From Candidatus Uhrbacteria bacterium (GTDB taxonomy: Bacteria; Patescibacteriota; Patescibacteriia; JACQRZ01): a stretch of 41,187 nt of DNA. Location: positions 1 through 41,187 of the forward strand of contig JACPMJ010000015.1 in assembly GCA_016186045.1 (NCBI GenBank), read 5' to 3'. Under the pieces are notes generated by a model that had not been told where the DNA came from, searched no databases, and saw only the letters and a list, made by a program, of their open reading frames with translations. The translations under genes and the position numbers were made by a program. The stretch's first letter is position 1. Each line of letters starts with the position of its first letter. Of the stretch, positions 2,422 to 41,187 are shown piece after piece.

Positions 2422-2880
2422 TCATGCCTTTTTTCGCTTCACCGCTGGTATTCCTATGACATCTTTTGGTTCTACTCGTTTGATGCCGGTTGTATCAAAA
2501 TCCTTATCATAAGAAATGATACAGGGATGTTCGCTCATAAGAAGCGCGTTTGAGACCACTAATGCATCAATAAATGCTATCTTACAGCGTTCATACAGCT
2601 CAAGCGCGCCATGGATATTCACTCGCTGAACGATTTTTACATTTCGCATACCTAATATTCCCCGAACAGTTTCATCTATTTCTTTGCGTTCTAGGTGATA
2701 CACACGCTCGCAAATAAGCTCAACCTCCGCGATGACCAATGACGAGGTCCACGCCTCAATATATCCCTCATTGCTGATCCGTTTTAATAAAAGCCGGCAC
2801 TCGCGCGCGCGTTTTGAGTCTTTTGAAATCAACGCCTCCAAAAAAATAGTGGTATCCAAAAAATAGCTTGTCTGTTTCAT
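2422..2880 (-). CDS. PIN-domain toxin (VapC-like)
   Basis: MKQTSYFLDTTIFLEAL...IAEVE...FIDALVVSNAL...ISYDKDFD: the acidic residues of a PIN domain. Directly downstream of an AbrB-like antitoxin. Confidence 0.85.
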   Translation of the reverse strand: MKQTSYFLDTTIFLEALISKDSKRARECRLLLKRISNEGYIEAWTSSLVIAEVELICERVYHLERKEIDETVRGILGMRNVKIVQRVNIHGALELYERCKIAFIDALVVSNALLMSEHPCIISYDKDFDTTGIKRVEPKDVIGIPAVKRKKA

Positions 2881-2894
2881 AGAGTCTCTCATAT

Positions 2895-3128
2895 TTATCG
2901 GTGTCGCGCGGTATGAGAACGCATGCGTTTCAGGCGTTTCAGGCGCCGTGACACACGATCGGCAACATCAAAAAAATCAACGGTCGAGCGCATCAAAACG
3001 CTCTTTTGGCCCAAGAGCGGCTCAAGAATAATTTTTCCCGTCGTGCCAATACTCAAATGATCCCGAAGTTTTTTTGGAATCGTGATCTGACCCTTACTCG
3101 TGACCGTGGCGTGATAGAGAGTATTCAT
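2895..3128 (-). CDS. SpoVT/AbrB-domain antitoxin (VapB-like)
   Basis: MNTLYHATVTSKGQITIPKKLRDHLSIGTTGKIILEP, a swapped-hairpin AbrB motif. Confidence 0.85.
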   Translation of the reverse strand: MNTLYHATVTSKGQITIPKKLRDHLSIGTTGKIILEPLLGQKSVLMRSTVDFFDVADRVSRRLKRLKRMRSHTARHR

Positions 3129-3203
3129 ATATGTAAAGCATACACGAGAAGCGCGTATCATGCAAATGTTGAGCGCATACTAAAAAAACATTACTTTTTA
3201 TTC

Positions 3204-34544: not shown

Positions 34545-34964
34545 TCAAAACGCAAGTTTCAATTCTTGTTTTATCCTTTGCAACGCAATCTCATGTTCAT
34601 ACGTTTTCTTTTTTTGATCCTCCACTTCTTTTTCCACTCTTCGCAACCATTCAATAGTAGCAAAACGCTCCTCGTCCAAGCGTTTTAAGATCGTAATCAT
34701 CTGATCGTTGGCGTTCATTTGTTCTTTTCTGAATGCTTCAAATTCTGTTTTTGTAACCGTCTGATCAAGACGCTCGCCATGCTCGATAACTACGGAGGTA
34801 AGTTTATCAAGCCGTTCGTCAATCTGAACAAACTTCGCGTCAACCCGATCAAAGCGTTCGTCTATCTGAACGAACTTCGCGTCAACCCGATCAAAGCGTT
34901 CGTCTATCTGAACGAACTTCGCGTCATGTTCGGTAAGTTTTTTGATGATGATATCTTCTTGCAT
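34545..34964 (-). CDS. Coiled-coil protein with 14-aa internal repeats
   Basis: DAKFVQIDERFDRV repeated about three times; heptad-like C-terminal half. Confidence 0.7.
   Translation of the reverse strand: MQEDIIIKKLTEHDAKFVQIDERFDRVDAKFVQIDERFDRVDAKFVQIDERLDKLTSVVIEHGERLDQTVTKTEFEAFRKEQMNANDQMITILKRLDEERFATIEWLRRVEKEVEDQKKKTYEHEIALQRIKQELKLAF
34815..34926 (-). repeat. 42-bp tandem repeat (about 2.7 copies)
   Basis: ttcgtctatctgaacgaacttcgcgtcaacccgatcaaagcg at 34815, 34857 and 34899 (last partial). Confidence 0.9.
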
Positions 34965-35049
34965 AGTGTATCTATTATCTAACAAAAAAACACTAAAGTC
35001 AAACCTCTCCCAGTGGATAAGTTTTTCCCTTTAAAACTTATGATTTTCA

Positions 35050-35103
35050 CCCTCACCTTCTTCTCCAGCTCATCAAGGCGCTTCTGGAGATTTTGATTTG
35101 TTT
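35050..35103 (-). repeat. Fibre-tail repeat copy D
   Basis: Minus translation TNQNLQKRLDELEKKVRVK immediately after the relE stop codon; matches the fibre C-terminus TNQDLQKRLDEIEKKVR. Confidence 0.85.
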
Positions 35104-35353
35104 ACTTATAAATATCCCGTCTGTGTCCGATAAGAAGAATAGTAATACTGTCTTTCTCACAATCGAAGATTACCCTATAATCACCGACGCGAAACCGATA
35201 ATTTCCCAGCTCGCTTCGCACGAGAGGTTCCGCAAACTCCATAGGGTCATCTTGGGAGCAATAAAAATCCAATTTTTTAATAATGCGAATCTGTATATCT
35301 TTCGGCAATTTCTGAATTTGCTTCAACGCCCGACACTTGACATAATACTTCAT
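35102..35353 (-). CDS. RelE/ParE-superfamily toxin
   Basis: MKYYVKCRALKQIQKLPKDIQIRIIKKL...PLVRSELGNYRFRVGDYRVIFDCEKDSITILLIGHRRDIY. Confidence 0.9.
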   Translation of the reverse strand: MKYYVKCRALKQIQKLPKDIQIRIIKKLDFYCSQDDPMEFAEPLVRSELGNYRFRVGDYRVIFDCEKDSITILLIGHRRDIYK

Positions 35354-35365
35354 ATATGAACGTTT

Positions 35366-35650
35366 TTACTCTATCCCAAGAATCTTTTTTACTTCACGGG
35401 CAGAGTATTTCTTCCGTTCGTTTCGCGCTTTGTGTATGTTCATACGATACGAGGGACTTGAAAGAGCCAGAAGATCCTCTGTCAGACTTTCAAACGTTGC
35501 GTTTGGCATAATGACCCCTATGGGTTTGCTACTTTTCAATACACGAATAAATGACCCTCGGGATTCAGCCGTTTTTAATAGTTTAGATATACCAGCTTGA
35601 ATTTCTTGTACGCTTGCGAAGTCTTCACGCTGAAATAGTTTTTTTTGCAT
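35366..35650 (-). CDS. Antitoxin (Phd/YefM or RelB-like)
   Basis: Directly upstream of relE; ...GISKLLKTAESRGSFIRVLKSSKPIGVIMPNATFESLTEDL, the Phd/YefM pattern. Confidence 0.75.
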   Translation of the reverse strand: MQKKLFQREDFASVQEIQAGISKLLKTAESRGSFIRVLKSSKPIGVIMPNATFESLTEDLLALSSPSYRMNIHKARNERKKYSAREVKKILGIE

Positions 35651-35668
35651 AAAAAAATATAATAATTA

Positions 35669-36109
35669 TTACAGAATTATTATAGATTTTTTTATCGTGC
35701 TTGTCAAATTTTTCTTCACCCTCACCTTCTTCTCCGGCTCTTCCAGACGCCTCCGGAGATCTTGATTTTTTTGCAGTTCTTTGATAATAACTTCAAGTTT
35801 TTTTCTTAATCGTGGAATATCTCTTTGCGCGGTATTCCAAACAATTCCCAGATCAACGCCAAAATATTCATGAATCAACATATCACGCATCCCCGCCATT
35901 TCTTGCCACTCAACATGCGGATGAGCATTGCGAAAATCCTTCGAAATATTTTTCACTGCCTCGCCCAAGATTTCAAACTTCCGCATAACTGCATCTTGTG
36001 TTTTAGTATCATCAAAAAATTCTTCTTGCGAGATATTTTTTGTCCATCTCTCTATATCTAAAATACTCTCAAGCATGTGTAATAAAAATATCTTAGGATC
36101 TTTCTTCAT
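35669..36109 (-). CDS. HepT-family HEPN toxin with a fibre-derived C-terminal extension
   Basis: RDMLIHEYFGVD = RX4HXY motif; C-terminal IIKELQKNQDLRRRLEEPEKKVRVKK matches the fibre tail. Confidence 0.85.
   Translation of the reverse strand: MKKDPKIFLLHMLESILDIERWTKNISQEEFFDDTKTQDAVMRKFEILGEAVKNISKDFRNAHPHVEWQEMAGMRDMLIHEYFGVDLGIVWNTAQRDIPRLRKKLEVIIKELQKNQDLRRRLEEPEKKVRVKKNLTSTIKKSIIIL
35719..35785 (-). repeat. Fibre-tail repeat copy C (in frame inside hepT)
   Basis: IKELQKNQDLRRRLEEPEKKVR vs fibre IKELQKTNQDLQKRLDEIEKKVR; one codon deleted and the stop codon lost. Confidence 0.85.
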
Positions 36110-36407
36110 AAATGATTTTTTGTTCTTCCATAATCCGCTCTTTTAGAAGCGGATGGATCGCATTATATGTAACAATGTCAACCTTCTTTTTTAGTTTTTT
36201 TTCAAGCTCTGCTTTCAACCGTACCATATCAAAAAGACTTTTCTTGCCTTTAAAACTCACTACTATATCAATATCGCTATTTTTTTTTGCCGTATTGCGC
36301 GCATATGAGCCAAAAAACGCCGCACGCGTCACTGCCGCCTTTTTAAGAACGGGGATAACTTTTTTTCTGACTGATTGAAGTGTCATATTTTTTATTTTAT
36401 TCTCCAT
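36093..36407 (-). CDS. MntA-family nucleotidyltransferase antitoxin
   Basis: AAFFGSYARNTAKKNSDIDIVVSF = GSxARx(n)DxD motif; overlaps the hepT start by 17 bp. Confidence 0.88.
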   Translation of the reverse strand: MENKIKNMTLQSVRKKVIPVLKKAAVTRAAFFGSYARNTAKKNSDIDIVVSFKGKKSLFDMVRLKAELEKKLKKKVDIVTYNAIHPLLKERIMEEQKIIYEERS

Positions 36408-36457
36408 GTCATCCTCGATCCCCAATCAAGTTGAGGACAGGCTTTGATCGAGGATCC
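36407..36457. repeat. Palindromic REP-like element
   Basis: TCCTCGATC (36412-36420)/GATCGAGGA (36446-36454); contains CCCAATCAAGTTG, the exact reverse complement of 6132-6144. Confidence 0.5.
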
Positions 36458-36464
36458 ATCCCCT

Positions 36465-36569
36465 CTACCTCACCTTCTTCTCCAATTCTTCCAGACGTTT
36501 CTGGAGATCTTGATTTGTTTTTTGGAGTTCCTTGATTGCCGCGGAGGTATTTTTTACTCCAATATTTAT
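36465..36569 (-). repeat. Fibre-tail repeat copy B
   Basis: 89/105 nt identical to copy A by hand count; translates to NIGVKNTSAAIKELQKTNQDLQKRLEELEKKVR* with the TAG stop kept. Confidence 0.9.
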
Positions 36570-36778
36570 CTCCTCTGCGACACAACAGCCTTCAAGGGAA
36601 TCTTTTGAAAATCTTTAGGAAGCACCTTTGACGCATCGAGAATTTCGATCGCAATGATCTTACCTTTTTTGTCATAATCAAAAATGATTCCCTCTTGCAC
36701 CTCTTCGCTTTCCGCGTATGCAGAATCTTTAAACTGAATACTTAGAGCGTCAATTTTCTTGTCATATTGAAACTTCAT
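36566..36778 (-). CDS. DUF2283 protein (antitoxin-like partner)
   Basis: MKFQYDKKIDALSIQFKDSAYAESEEVQEGIIFDYDKKGKIIAIEILDASKVLP. Confidence 0.88.
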   Translation of the reverse strand: MKFQYDKKIDALSIQFKDSAYAESEEVQEGIIFDYDKKGKIIAIEILDASKVLPKDFQKIPLKAVVSQRR

Positions 36779-37026
36779 ATGTATTTCTTTATCTTTGAAC
36801 TTATAAAGGCAGTCACAATACTTGTATCGGCATGCTCTTGTTTATCATAAATCACTATAAGGACATAACGTTTCTTGTCTTTCTTAAAAATTCGCATAGC
36901 TCTAAACCGAATCATTGTTTGCCGAACAACCTTATCTGGATGGACTATACAGTCGAGAATATCTTTCGATAAAATATTTCTTTCTTCTATTTGAAATAGC
37001 GCATGATCACTAAATAGTGTAGCCAT
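36775..37026 (-). CDS. DUF4258 protein (RelE-like or BrnT-like toxin candidate)
   Basis: FSDHALFQIEERNILSKDILDCIVHPDKVVRQ...YVLIVIYDKQEHADTSIVTAFISSKIKKY; 4-nt overlap with the DUF2283 gene. Confidence 0.82.
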   Translation of the reverse strand: MATLFSDHALFQIEERNILSKDILDCIVHPDKVVRQTMIRFRAMRIFKKDKKRYVLIVIYDKQEHADTSIVTAFISSKIKKYI

Positions 37027-37078
37027 ATTTTCCTTTCATGGAAATTGTACACTGAAATTTATATAAACACAAACCCTC

Positions 37079-37183
37079 CTACCTCACCTTCTTCTCTATC
37101 TCATCGAGGCGTTTTTGGAGATCTTGGTTTGTTTTTTGCAGTTCTTTGATCGCCGCGGAGGTGTTTTTTTCTCCGATGTTTAC
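37079..37183 (-). repeat. Fibre-tail repeat copy A (3' end of the fibre gene)
   Basis: Encodes VNIGEKNTSAAIKELQKTNQDLQKRLDEIEKKVR*; parent of copies B-D. Confidence 0.9.
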
Positions 37184-40100
37184 AAACACGAGCACCGTCC
37201 CGTCTCCCCAGCCGGAGTAGTTTTCCAGCGCGACGCCCACCGTATTTCCCGGTTCCGTGGCGCGCATGGCGACACCGGCGATACTGGAAGACGTGAGATA
37301 ATCTCCGCTATGAATGGGGCCGTTTTCCAAAGATACCTTTACCGGTACGCGACCGGCGAGGGCGACGGGTGGTTTTGTACCTCTTATAAATCTGTCCGGC
37401 TTTGAGCCGAGCTTCAGATCGCTTCCCTCAAAAAGCAGGGCGGGCGAACCGGAGACGATTCCCACTATCTCTCCCTGATAACTCTTTGATGATTTTTCTA
37501 ATTTTTTATCTTTCTCTCCTATCACGAGTACATCCCCTACCTCCACATCTTCGCTTGTCTCATACAGCTCCGCGACATCCAGACCAATGCGATCGCGTGA
37601 GAGTGCGAGCTTTTGTTTTGGATCAACCGCACTTAAGAGTCCTCTATCAAGAGCTGATACGTTTATTTCTCCACCGTTTACATCGAGCATAGCGAGGGGA
37701 TTTGTAGTGTTTATGCCGAGCTTGCCGTTCTTTACTATAATATCTCCATTAAACACGCCGGCATAATTTGCGGAACCTTTTTTTGCATAAAGCGCGGTCC
37801 ACCCCATTTTCAGTTCACTTTCAAGATGTGTAAGACCGGATAATTCCGTACCGTCTAAATTACCTCCGGGGTATGTAACCTTAAAATTTCTATTATTAAC
37901 GTCGCCTCGATTACCTACGATATCTAATGTCGCCCCGGGAGTCGCAGTGCCGATACCGACACTGCCATTTAACGTAAAAAATGTTTTTTTGACTTGGATT
38001 TGAACTTGGAAGAGTTGTTTAAACTTACTCCTCCTCCCCCTATAATTATAATAGCACCAATCACCATCTGTAGAATTTCCCGTATAGATATCTTCAGGTG
38101 AAGTATCTTTTATAGTAAAAGAACATTCTGGATTTCCAGTACCCCTTATAGCATTTCCACTCTTAGTATATTGCGTGATTGAAGACGAAACACTTATCTC
38201 CCCTTTTGACACGAAATTTCCCGTAATCTGCATATTGCCATTCACATCAAGCTTATACGCTGGCGTCGTAGTGCCAATGCCGACGTTGCCGCCGGTATAA
38301 TAAATGTCTCTGTTTGTTCCTGTCATAAACGGAGAGACTCCATTTATACCAGGCTGTCCCGGATCTCCTCTTTTTGCAAGAAGATTCCAATACTCCCATG
38401 CTTTATTATTATTAGAACTAGCATTAGCGCCTCCTGTTCCATTGCTGTCCGTGATCCGTTTCGTAGCAAAAGTGCCCCCTCCTAGCGCTGGTTTCGATGG
38501 TTGAATCCCTACTCCTCCACCCCATATCGGGGTTGTGCCTTTACTAGGAGCACCTTCAGTAGGGGCTCCACCACACGATGGTGGCGCTATTTTCCCATCA
38601 TTGTTTTGTATCGCAATCCATGAGGAATAGTCACAAAAAACCACGTCATTTATTTTATAATTTATATCTTTCTTCCACTCTCCTTTCCATACCATTCCGG
38701 GTGGACCTTGTAGTCCCGTCGGATCACCTTTCCATTTTCCAGTAGAATCAATTACTGTGCTTGTGCCTATTTTAAATTCCGTCGCCTGGATAGTGCCATT
38801 TACGTAAATATTACCACCAAAATTTGAACTCTGCCCATTTCCGCGAATTTCAGTAGCTGTCACACCTGATCCACCCAAATTAAGATAGCCATAATCTCTA
38901 TCTGCAATATGCAAACTGATCTTAGTATTTTTTCCGGCGGCACTCACAAGAAGACCATTGTTTCCGGAGCCATTAATATGAAGTATTTTTTCCGGCGTGG
39001 TGGTGCCAATACCGACACGTAAATTCTTCTGATCGGTGTATAACACATTTTGTATATTCCGTTCACCAATGTTCGCCACCCTATTCCTTAACATTTCTAA
39101 GTTACTTCCAGACATATATGATATCACGTTTCCAAGTATTTTCTGTCCGTTCGATGTTCCTGTTAAATACCCCGTCTGATCATGAAACCAAATACCACCT
39201 CTTTCGCTTTCACCGATAATGCCAGTGATTTTAGTAGGATCGCCCGTCTTTTTATAAAGTGCTATAAACTCTGAGGAAACAGAAGTGATAATTTTCCCAG
39301 TATCTCCATAGTCTCCAATATTTGTTGCAGAACGATAATTTCGTGTGATAATATGATTCGCATCCGCACTTGAGGCGTAACCAGACGTAGAACCCCATGT
39401 ATTTTTATTCCATTCGATATATCCGGTTATAGGATATGTTCCCGTATCACTATCATTTCCGATTGTAATCACATTCTTTCCATATTTTTTCCAAAGATCA
39501 TATGCTTTACTACTTGCATTACCAACACTCCATGCATAGTTATCTATAATATAAATATCATAATCCTTAGCGGCAAGCTGATCTGCGTTTAAAGAGATGT
39601 CTACGTCCGCGACAGAAAAATAGTTATTCTTTTTGAGCCATGTCCATGTTGGGGCTCCCTTATCGGGATCATTTGATCCTTCATTGGGATACCATGTCGC
39701 ATAACTTATAAGTAGTGCTCGCGGTTTTTCGCCAACATTTGAAATTTCACCCCACGCAGTTTTACAGTCGCCATTTATACAAAGCCCTGTCGAGCTGACA
39801 TTTCCCGAGACATTCACGTTTCCGGCGACATCCAGCTTCGCCCCGGGACTCGTAGTGCCGATGCCAACGTTGCCGCCAAAGTATCCGTTTTCGTATGTAT
39901 TTGGTCCTTTGGGTTGATACGCAGTTGCAATACTTCCACTTTCAAGTTGCGCCCCATATACATAATACGAAACTTCTGAATTAATATTCAGGTATACATG
40001 AAGGGCGGAATTATCTGAAAGAGAGCTATTATCCACCGTTCCGGCCGTTCCAGTCAGAATACAGCGCTTCCACGTGTTTGCAGTCAGCCCGCAGGTATTA

Positions 40101-41187
40101 CTTGCAAATGTGTCTTTATCTCCCGCCCGACGAAAGACACTTTGAATAGTCGTATCTACTGATGGCTTTACCCAAAATGAAAATGTGAATGTCTTACCGC
40201 GAACGTCAGCCATACCATGGCTTGCGGTATGTAGTTGAGTTCTATAGTCTCCCCCACTACCACCTGTCTGAAACAATTTTCCAACAGCTCCTGTTATGCC
40301 ATCTGGTCGCACTTGAATTTCTTGCGTCCAAATAATGGGAGCTTTCCCATAATTACAAGAGCTCCAATCATCTTCTGCGCCACCACAATTTACTGCGTTT
40401 GTCCCATTTGTATTTGTTCCAAGAGTATCTGTTTTGTGTACAAAATTTTGCGCGCTTGCCGAGCTTATTGAGCCCCAGTCTCTACAATCTCCTTTAATAC
40501 AAAGTTGATTGGATGTATTTATGTTTCCATTCACGTCAAGCTTATACGCTGGTGTAGTGGTGCCGATGCCGACTTTGCCTTCACTATCTATTACTATTCT
40601 CGGTCCTAAGGCATTACCTGTAAAGAATCTAAGGTTAGCACCGTCACTTAGTGTTTGAATAAACCCACCTGCACTGTCTGCTCCAAATTCTGCCTTCTTT
40701 CCGCCATTTTCTGTATCCGATACTCTGACCGCTACTTGGCCAACCCGTGAGATCTCAAGACCACCACCATTAATTGTCGGCTCCGCAGTCCCAATGCCGA
40801 CGTTGCCGGTGGTTCCGACGATAAGATTCGCGGTCGTGCCACCATCAGTCGATATGAGGAGTTTTTGACTCTGTGTTCTAAGTACAACATCGCCCACGGC
40901 GCTTCCCGTAATGAAGCCATTCGCCGCACCAGTGACACCGAAGAATCCTTTGTTTGTACTATTAAGACTCACAACAATCCCGGAATTACCGGTGCTATTT
41001 TCATCCACACGTACGAACTTACCTGTGCCACTCAAAGTTAGCAAGTCAGCCGGCGTAGTAGTGCCAATGCCTACGTTGCCTTTATCATTAATACGCATTC
41101 TTTCGGTAGCGCTTCCAGCGATACCTCCTGTGGTAAACGAAATATGACCTTGAGCGCCAACTTCAAGTTCTGCATCACCACCTTGCG
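37079..41187 (-). CDS. Giant modular fibre/adhesin-like protein (5' end outside the window)
   Basis: Iterated NVGIGTTxPxxKLDVxGN modules, collagen-like GxPGxxG stretches, LCIxGDC motifs. The frame stays open from the first ATG (41098) to the window edge (QGGDAELEVGAQGHISFTTGGIAGSATERMRIND). Confidence 0.88.
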   Translation of the reverse strand, partial: QGGDAELEVGAQGHISFTTGGIAGSATERMRINDKGNVGIGTTTPADLLTLSGTGKFVRVDENSTGNSGIVVSLNSTNKGFFGVTGAANGFITGSAVGDVVLRTQSQKLLISTDGGTTANLIVGTTGNVGIGTAEPTINGGGLEISRVGQVAVRVSDTENGGKKAEFGADSAGGFIQTLSDGANLRFFTGNALGPRIVIDSEGKVGIGTTTPAYKLDVNGNINTSNQLCIKGDCRDWGSISSASAQNFVHKTDTLGTNTNGTNAVNCGGAEDDWSSCNYGKAPIIWTQEIQVRPDGITGAVGKLFQTGGSGGDYRTQLHTASHGMADVRGKTFTFSFWVKPSVDTTIQSVFRRAGDKDTFASNTCGLTANTWKRCILTGTAGTVDNSSLSDNSALHVYLNINSEVSYYVYGAQLESGSIATAYQPKGPNTYENGYFGGNVGIGTTSPGAKLDVAGNVNVSGNVSSTGLCINGDCKTAWGEISNVGEKPRALLISYATWYPNEGSNDPDKGAPTWTWLKKNNYFSVADVDISLNADQLAAKDYDIYIIDNYAWSVGNASSKAYDLWKKYGKNVITIGNDSDTGTYPITGYIEWNKNTWGSTSGYASSADANHIITRNYRSATNIGDYGDTGKIITSVSSEFIALYKKTGDPTKITGIIGESERGGIWFHDQTGYLTGTSNGQKILGNVISYMSGSNLEMLRNRVANIGERNIQNVLYTDQKNLRVGIGTTTPEKILHINGSGNNGLLVSAAGKNTKISLHIADRDYGYLNLGGSGVTATEIRGNGQSSNFGGNIYVNGTIQATEFKIGTSTVIDSTGKWKGDPTGLQGPPGMVWKGEWKKDINYKINDVVFCDYSSWIAIQNNDGKIAPPSCGGAPTEGAPSKGTTPIWGGGVGIQPSKPALGGGTFATKRITDSNGTGGANASSNNNKAWEYWNLLAKRGDPGQPGINGVSPFMTGTNRDIYYTGGNVGIGTTTPAYKLDVNGNMQITGNFVSKGEISVSSSITQYTKSGNAIRGTGNPECSFTIKDTSPEDIYTGNSTDGDWCYYNYRGRRSKFKQLFQVQIQVKKTFFTLNGSVGIGTATPGATLDIVGNRGDVNNRNFKVTYPGGNLDGTELSGLTHLESELKMGWTALYAKKGSANYAGVFNGDIIVKNGKLGINTTNPLAMLDVNGGEINVSALDRGLLSAVDPKQKLALSRDRIGLDVAELYETSEDVEVGDVLVIGEKDKKLEKSSKSYQGEIVGIVSGSPALLFEGSDLKLGSKPDRFIRGTKPPVALAGRVPVKVSLENGPIHSGDYLTSSSIAGVAMRATEPGNTVGVALENYSGWGDGTVLVFVNIGEKNTSAAIKELQKTNQDLQKRLDEIEKKVR
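37947..41080 (-). repeat. Dispersed ~30-bp repeats encoding NVGIGT(T/A)xP
   Basis: Copies of gtgcc(a/g)at(g/a)cc(g/a)ac near 37947, 38271, 39003, 39855, 40559, 40788 and 41061. Confidence 0.85.

Follow-up and report, generated by a model that had tools for sequence, protein, structure and literature searches.

How do toxin-antitoxin (TA) modules come to lie between repeated copies of the 3' end of a giant surface-protein gene? This question is raised by the minus strand of one contig of a Candidatus Uhrbacteria genome (928 kb in 32 contigs), which was analysed over its whole length of 41,187 bp (contig C15, hereafter the window). Behind it stands an old open question, i.e., how tiny TA operons with neither transposase nor integrase spread between chromosomes; TA modules have been called highly mobile, and their fixation is not understood (PMC2654758).

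Anatomy of the array

Read along the minus strand, the array runs from the fibre gene with its tail (copy A) through a DUF4258-DUF2283 pair, copy B, a hairpin repeat, an MntA-HepT pair, copy C and a Phd/ParE-RelE pair to copy D (Table 1). Pfam searches placed adjacent gene pairs in type II TA families (RelBE/ParDE, MntA-HepT), whose toxin and antitoxin roles are predicted, and genomic context makes the DUF4258-DUF2283 genes a putative TA pair. An initial annotation had described three TA modules interleaved with four truncated tail copies. The Pfam matches upheld the three pairs; only three of the tail copies are truncated, copy A (37079-37183) being the intact coiled-coil C-terminus with its TAG stop. 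The annotated gene order and nesting of the copies (B from NIGEKN, C from IKELQ, D from TNQ) were reproduced, as was the placing of TA stop codons at the homology edges of B and D: both DUF2283 and RelE retain their own stops, and in each case the TAA forms the junction with the tail copy.

Table 1. Coordinates, strand and supporting evidence for the features of the array, in minus-strand order
Feature	Position in the window	Strand	Evidence or remark
Giant fibre-like surface gene, 3' tail = copy A	37079..41187	-	C-terminal conservation and coiled-coil tail; 5' end lost at contig edge
DUF4258 gene, 83 aa, first gene of TA-like pair 1, adjoins fibre gene	36775..37026	-	PF14076 E=2e-7
DUF2283 gene, 70 aa, second gene of pair 1	36566..36778	-	PF10049 E=5e-19
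Tail copy B, 5'-truncated fibre 3' end, TAG intact	36465..36568	-	BLAST 86% to A
Dispersed hairpin repeat (GGATCCTCGATC...GATCGAGGATGACA) between copy B and MntA	36407..36458	-	Own-genome repeat search
MntA-type nucleotidyltransferase, predicted antitoxin of pair 2	36093..36407	-	PF18765 E=8e-21 (Polbeta)
HepT-type HEPN RNase, predicted toxin of pair 2	35669..36109	-	PF01934 E=6e-31 over residues 12-108
Tail copy C, lacking its 5' part and one codon (in-frame deletion), continues the HepT reading frame	35720..35785	-	BLAST 80% to A
Phd/YefM-like predicted antitoxin of pair 3	35366..35650	-	PF02604 E=9e-6, 25.8 bits, just under curated cut-off of 29.8
RelE/ParE predicted toxin of pair 3	35102..35353	-	PF05016 E=4e-8
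Tail copy D, the shortest and the farthest from the fibre gene; shares the RelE frame but lies past the RelE stop	35051..35103	-	BLAST 87% to A

Homologues of RelE and DUF2283 end at, or nearly at, the array junctions: the DUF2283 homologue in genome G001 matches residues 1-67 of 70, and full-length RelE/ParE homologues are present in G001 and G003, both of which also carry homologues of the Phd/YefM-like antitoxin gene. HepT is native over residues ~1-109; since its homologues stop at residue 108-109, the last 37 residues (110-146) represent copy C and read-through, as the placing of copy C at the 3' end of HepT had implied. Copy B does not share the reading frame of DUF2283 and lacks a normal start, and none of the copies contains a stop. 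By eye, the junctions share a few bases each, a microhomology too short to judge, and a consensus-like promoter (TTGACA-17-TATAAT) lies immediately behind copy C, before the Phd/YefM-like gene. The hairpin repeat occurs in the genome as seven copies or part-copies (six besides the array's own). Dispersed hairpin repeats, together with short palindromic repeats at contigs C1 and C31, were set aside as another kind of repeat.

Copies A-D were recovered by BLAST with E-values of 5e-11 or better. DNA and protein searches found no tail sequence elsewhere in the genome, and of the fibre relatives whose 3' end could be read, all 78 lacked a downstream tail copy or tail-TA array, which rules out that the tail is a genome-wide repeat or a repeat element in its own right. 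Copies A and B match at 89/105 nt, and their 16 nt differences comprise 11 synonymous and 4 non-synonymous codons, in agreement with the predominance of synonymous changes in the initial annotation; random mutation would be expected to yield ~11 non-synonymous codons, and 0 of 4000 simulations gave a number as low as 4. The same synonymous trend was seen for A-C, A-D, B-C and B-D (P 0.01-0.03), and C-D showed no synonymous bias (2 synonymous, 6 non-synonymous, P 0.83). Judged by these codon changes, coding-type divergence is clear for A versus B and weaker for A versus C and D, and copy B, at least, did not originate as a decaying fresh duplicate. Its proposed descent from a translated fibre paralogue therefore survives as far as the coding history is concerned, and divergence between lineages before recombination is a better reading than a paralogue in this genome. 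Because the similarities among the copies are mosaic (A and B versus C and D at the 3' end; A and D versus B and C in the middle), the order of events cannot be read firmly from them. Misassembly of the array is argued against by the 13-20% difference among copies and by the presence of the same layout in unrelated genomes.

The C-terminal 165 aa of the fibre protein are conserved in 8/11 family genomes (own included), and those aligned show a coiled-coil-like tail; sampling of the family is thin (11 genomes in 9 genera). The closest relatives of the fibre gene are found in Candidatus Uhrbacteria MAGs from groundwater, some relatives possess 2-3 fibre genes, and the downstream neighbours of the gene differ among related genomes. 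A viral origin of the fibre C-terminus was considered and discarded, as viral contigs gave no relative. In G001 (contig C32, locus L132, 8150-8530), an orthologous DUF4258-DUF2283 pair is located behind another giant surface gene. It follows a hairpin repeat and a coiled-coil tail that is truncated (LELEKKVALLEQKLQAA*), an arrangement suggestive of a pair that moved together with a fibre-like tail. Elsewhere in the window, a small coiled-coil gene (34545-34985) contains three 42-nt tandem repeats and has distant paralogues on contig C2, and a PIN-domain gene (2422-2892) with a small ORF (2895-3161) makes up a VapBC-like pair (2422-3161) without flanking direct repeats.

Recurrence at the ends of other genes

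The same layout was found elsewhere in the genome, of which 924 kb, i.e., nearly the whole, was searched. Behind doxX lie VapBC and then a 77-nt copy of the doxX 3' end (82%). For clpB the succession is an AbiE pair and then 41 nt copied from the clpB 3' end, and in the third case an AbiEii gene precedes a second AbiE pair, encoded on the opposite strand, and a copied stretch of 73 nt (88%). Among ORFs of 100-400 aa, 39/499 lie between repeats, a figure that was not used as a test because many of these are tandem paralogues; a crude scan of the 3' ends versus the 5' ends of all ORFs in the genome was uninformative owing to spurious ORFs and paralogues. Repeats on contig C14 were rejected as 3'-end copies, as they are actually 5' gene fragments around a DUF4143 ATPase. 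Two other regions were recorded. At 7335-11317 of contig C13 (L179), a 170-nt copy spanning one gene's 3' end and the start of the next now forms the C-terminus of an unrelated 301-aa ORF, with a transglutaminase gene in between. Contig C2 (16300-25500; L138, L186) contains AAA/DUF4143-like ATPase genes among paralogous lipoprotein-like genes, with several ~50-nt repeats.

Across 116 genomes of the class, TA loci were collected by family searches for HepT, PIN and AbiEii, with two non-TA families (NUDIX and acetyltransferase) as controls and 1.5 kb of flank on each side throughout. At 25/122 TA loci versus 2/77 controls, the gene lay between direct repeats scoring at least 20 (Fisher p=1.3e-4), and at a score of at least 30 the counts were 14/122 and 0/77 (p=8e-4); the top score with one flank reversed was 18. 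The 25 repeat-flanked loci come from 14 genomes in 10 families, loci from the same genome are not fully independent, and hairpins, promoter-like stretches or paralogues account for a few. The signal was weaker at AbiEii loci (3/29), probably because an AbiE operon almost fills the 1.5-kb flank in which repeats were sought. As ~80% of TA loci have no scar, other routes or erosion must exist. What lies between the repeats is also not always a TA module, since a HAD gene and a transglutaminase gene were found there too.

A clear host ORF could be assigned at 13 loci, the hosts including atpG, tatD, dihydrouridine synthase (dus), rmuC, a sugar transferase, an AhpC-type peroxiredoxin and a type II/IV secretion ATPase. 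Often, as with atpG (within atpG-atpD), tatD, dus and clpB, they are normally single-copy housekeeping genes. At 11 of these loci, the repeat ends at the stop codon or within 16 nt of it; at the remaining two, it extends 44 nt past the stop (L227) or corresponds to the 5' end of the gene (tatD). Codon differences summed over the 13 loci amounted to 64 synonymous and 28 non-synonymous, where decay of one copy would be expected to make ~78% non-synonymous (P about 1e-22; 2e-6 under a generous mixed-decay model). This ratio indicates that most of the divergence arose while both copies still served as genes, ahead of their joining, as expected of two functional orthologues. One of the loci, on contig C55 of genome G109 (L228, 96-2200), has MNT/HepT between atpG and atpD of the ATP-synthase operon, with a 46-nt copy of the atpG 3' end behind it.

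At tatD, an empty site was identified: in genome G080, cvpA and tatD are adjacent. Between cvpA and a full tatD, G109 (contig C21, L357, 1430-5643) carries inserts including HicAB and a HAD gene, the latter bracketed by its own 101-nt repeats (97%), followed by a 145-nt scrap of the tatD 5' end and MNT/HepT. The congeneric genome G043 (contig C8, L356, 1-3420) has a shorter tatD 5' scrap, then a Fic gene and two other ORFs, then full tatD. The cvpA-tatD junction is a hotspot of nested repeats whose cargo differs in sister species, and the tatD bracket is a 5'-end mirror image of the fibre array.

Since doxX, clpB, tatD, atpG, dus, rmuC and other genes show the same layout, TA insertion at gene ends leaves a general scar that is not specific to the fibre gene, and the array exemplifies it. 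What the initial annotation had proposed, i.e., a repeat-delimited TA cassette array growing by serial addition at the fibre tail, holds up except that the fibre tail is not special, and the search that it called for gave no background copies of the tail.

A route of entry and its alternatives

We propose, with a probability of about 65%, that the array is the trace of three serial imports of a fibre gene end with a TA operon from diverged relatives, by a combination of homologous and illegitimate joining. Incoming linear DNA would carry a diverged fibre 3' end with a TA operon behind it. The gene-end part would pair with the resident fibre gene by homologous recombination, and the other end, just behind the TA operon, would be joined illegitimately inside the last ~50-105 bases of the resident gene. 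The product would be an intact hybrid fibre gene, a new TA module, the old resident tail cut on its 5' side and, beyond it, the older array. With each import the newest module would come to adjoin the gene and the oldest to lie farthest away, so that pair 1 would be the newest module and copy D the oldest resident tail. Similarity would end near the stop codon because donor and recipient share no intergenic DNA, and TA addiction is a likely reason for retention of the insert, which may account for the frequency of TA modules among retained cargo. This single step accounts for the intact gene, the truncated resident end, the synonymous divergence, the tight fit of scrap to TA module and the stacking. 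In the window and at the class loci, homology is anchored on one side, with the anchor gene intact and a truncated scrap opposite, and the codon counts (11:4 for A-B as well as the summed 64:28) point to different lineages for anchor copy and scrap. The genome encodes the competence protein ComEC, and Patescibacteria are considered capable of DNA uptake (PMC12455944). No donor genome with the fibre tail and one of these TA pairs but without a scrap was found, in a family that is thinly sampled.

An identical end product with diverged coding copies would result if gene and TA module were integrated whole (gene' - TA - gene) and subsequent deletion spared no more than the tail of the now superfluous second gene; merodiploids are reported to form in transformation (PMC3784515). 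Such deletion should, however, often leave other parts of the gene, whereas clear scraps are nearly all terminal and close to the TA module, and we consider this course unlikely. Insertion by a site-specific or transposon-like process that duplicates its target, i.e., by a mobile TA cassette that uses an att-like site within gene tails, would explain why the gene-end position with a restored gene resembles integrase targets, and long target duplication is reported for restriction-modification (R-M) systems in the passages cited below. Yet the inserts have no visible recombinase, no common sequence was noticed among the target genes, the copies are synonymously diverged rather than identical, and the stop codon or its vicinity usually marks the limit of similarity, which together make it improbable.

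Collapse of a tandem array of fibre paralogues, each carrying a TA module, had been offered in the initial annotation as another possible cause. It could accommodate the coding-type divergence of copy B and the 2-3 fibre genes of some relatives, but those paralogues are not in tandem and have no TA module directly behind them in the same layout, and normally single-copy genes bear the same scar; we therefore regard it as very improbable. That the copies are translated or functional coiled-coil tags, such as a fibre-docking tail on HepT, can practically be dismissed: C is in frame with HepT, D is in frame behind RelE and the copies are free of stops, but B is in a different frame from DUF2283 and lacks a normal start, a stop precedes D, and the scraps elsewhere derive from enzymes and ATPases.

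Serial import thus remains our preferred reading of the array. More tentatively, and with the odds slightly against it, we suggest that recombination anchored on ordinary host gene ends is a main interspecies route for recombinase-less TA modules in Patescibacteria, leaving datable scars and, upon reuse of a site, stacked arrays. The gene-end scars in any case hint at a route by which TA genes without a transposase of their own enter genomes. As each insertion would retain a piece of the resident gene next to the donor version, it would record the source of the module, the divergence of the donor and the order of arrival; such scars can be searched for in any genome collection, and the step itself can be tested in competent laboratory strains.

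Comparison with known systems

A search of open-licence papers returned no description of TA modules with target duplication or illegitimate recombination. The orphan immunity-gene arrays of the Vibrio cholerae type VI secretion system (T6SS), for which an origin by homology-facilitated illegitimate recombination was proposed (PMC5361080), are alike in having serial modules behind a conserved gene part, older ones pushed 3'-ward, a shifted effector 3' end and a one-sided anchor. Unlike those arrays, the units here are complete TA pairs instead of orphan immunity genes, any host gene can serve as anchor, and no effector is displaced.

Passages in PMC3031569, PMC3874152 and PMC2654758, referring to Nobusato et al. 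2000 and Furuta et al. 2010, describe R-M systems inserting with a long and variable target duplication. As far as those passages go, the shared features are addiction-type genes with a long duplicated piece of the target, and both direct repeats (at the 25 TA loci) and an empty site (tatD in G080) were found here. The differences are that these are TA modules of Patescibacteria whose copies diverged mostly synonymously, end at stop codons and can stack; duplication of a single resident target does not fit this divergence, since its mainly synonymous nature implies that both copies parted as functional genes.

Displacement of Rhs/CdiA C-termini leaves orphan toxin-immunity modules, according to work cited in a passage of PMC5361080, and on that description it too places an array of modules, each with a gene fragment, behind a giant surface gene. 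It differs in that the TA proteins here are separate from the surface protein and each copy comprises only the last ~53-105 nt of the gene; instead of a toxic C-terminal domain with an immunity gene, the fibre ends in a coiled coil and the TA genes form separate small operons. Taken together, the gene-end scar is a variant of known displacement and target-duplication insertions.
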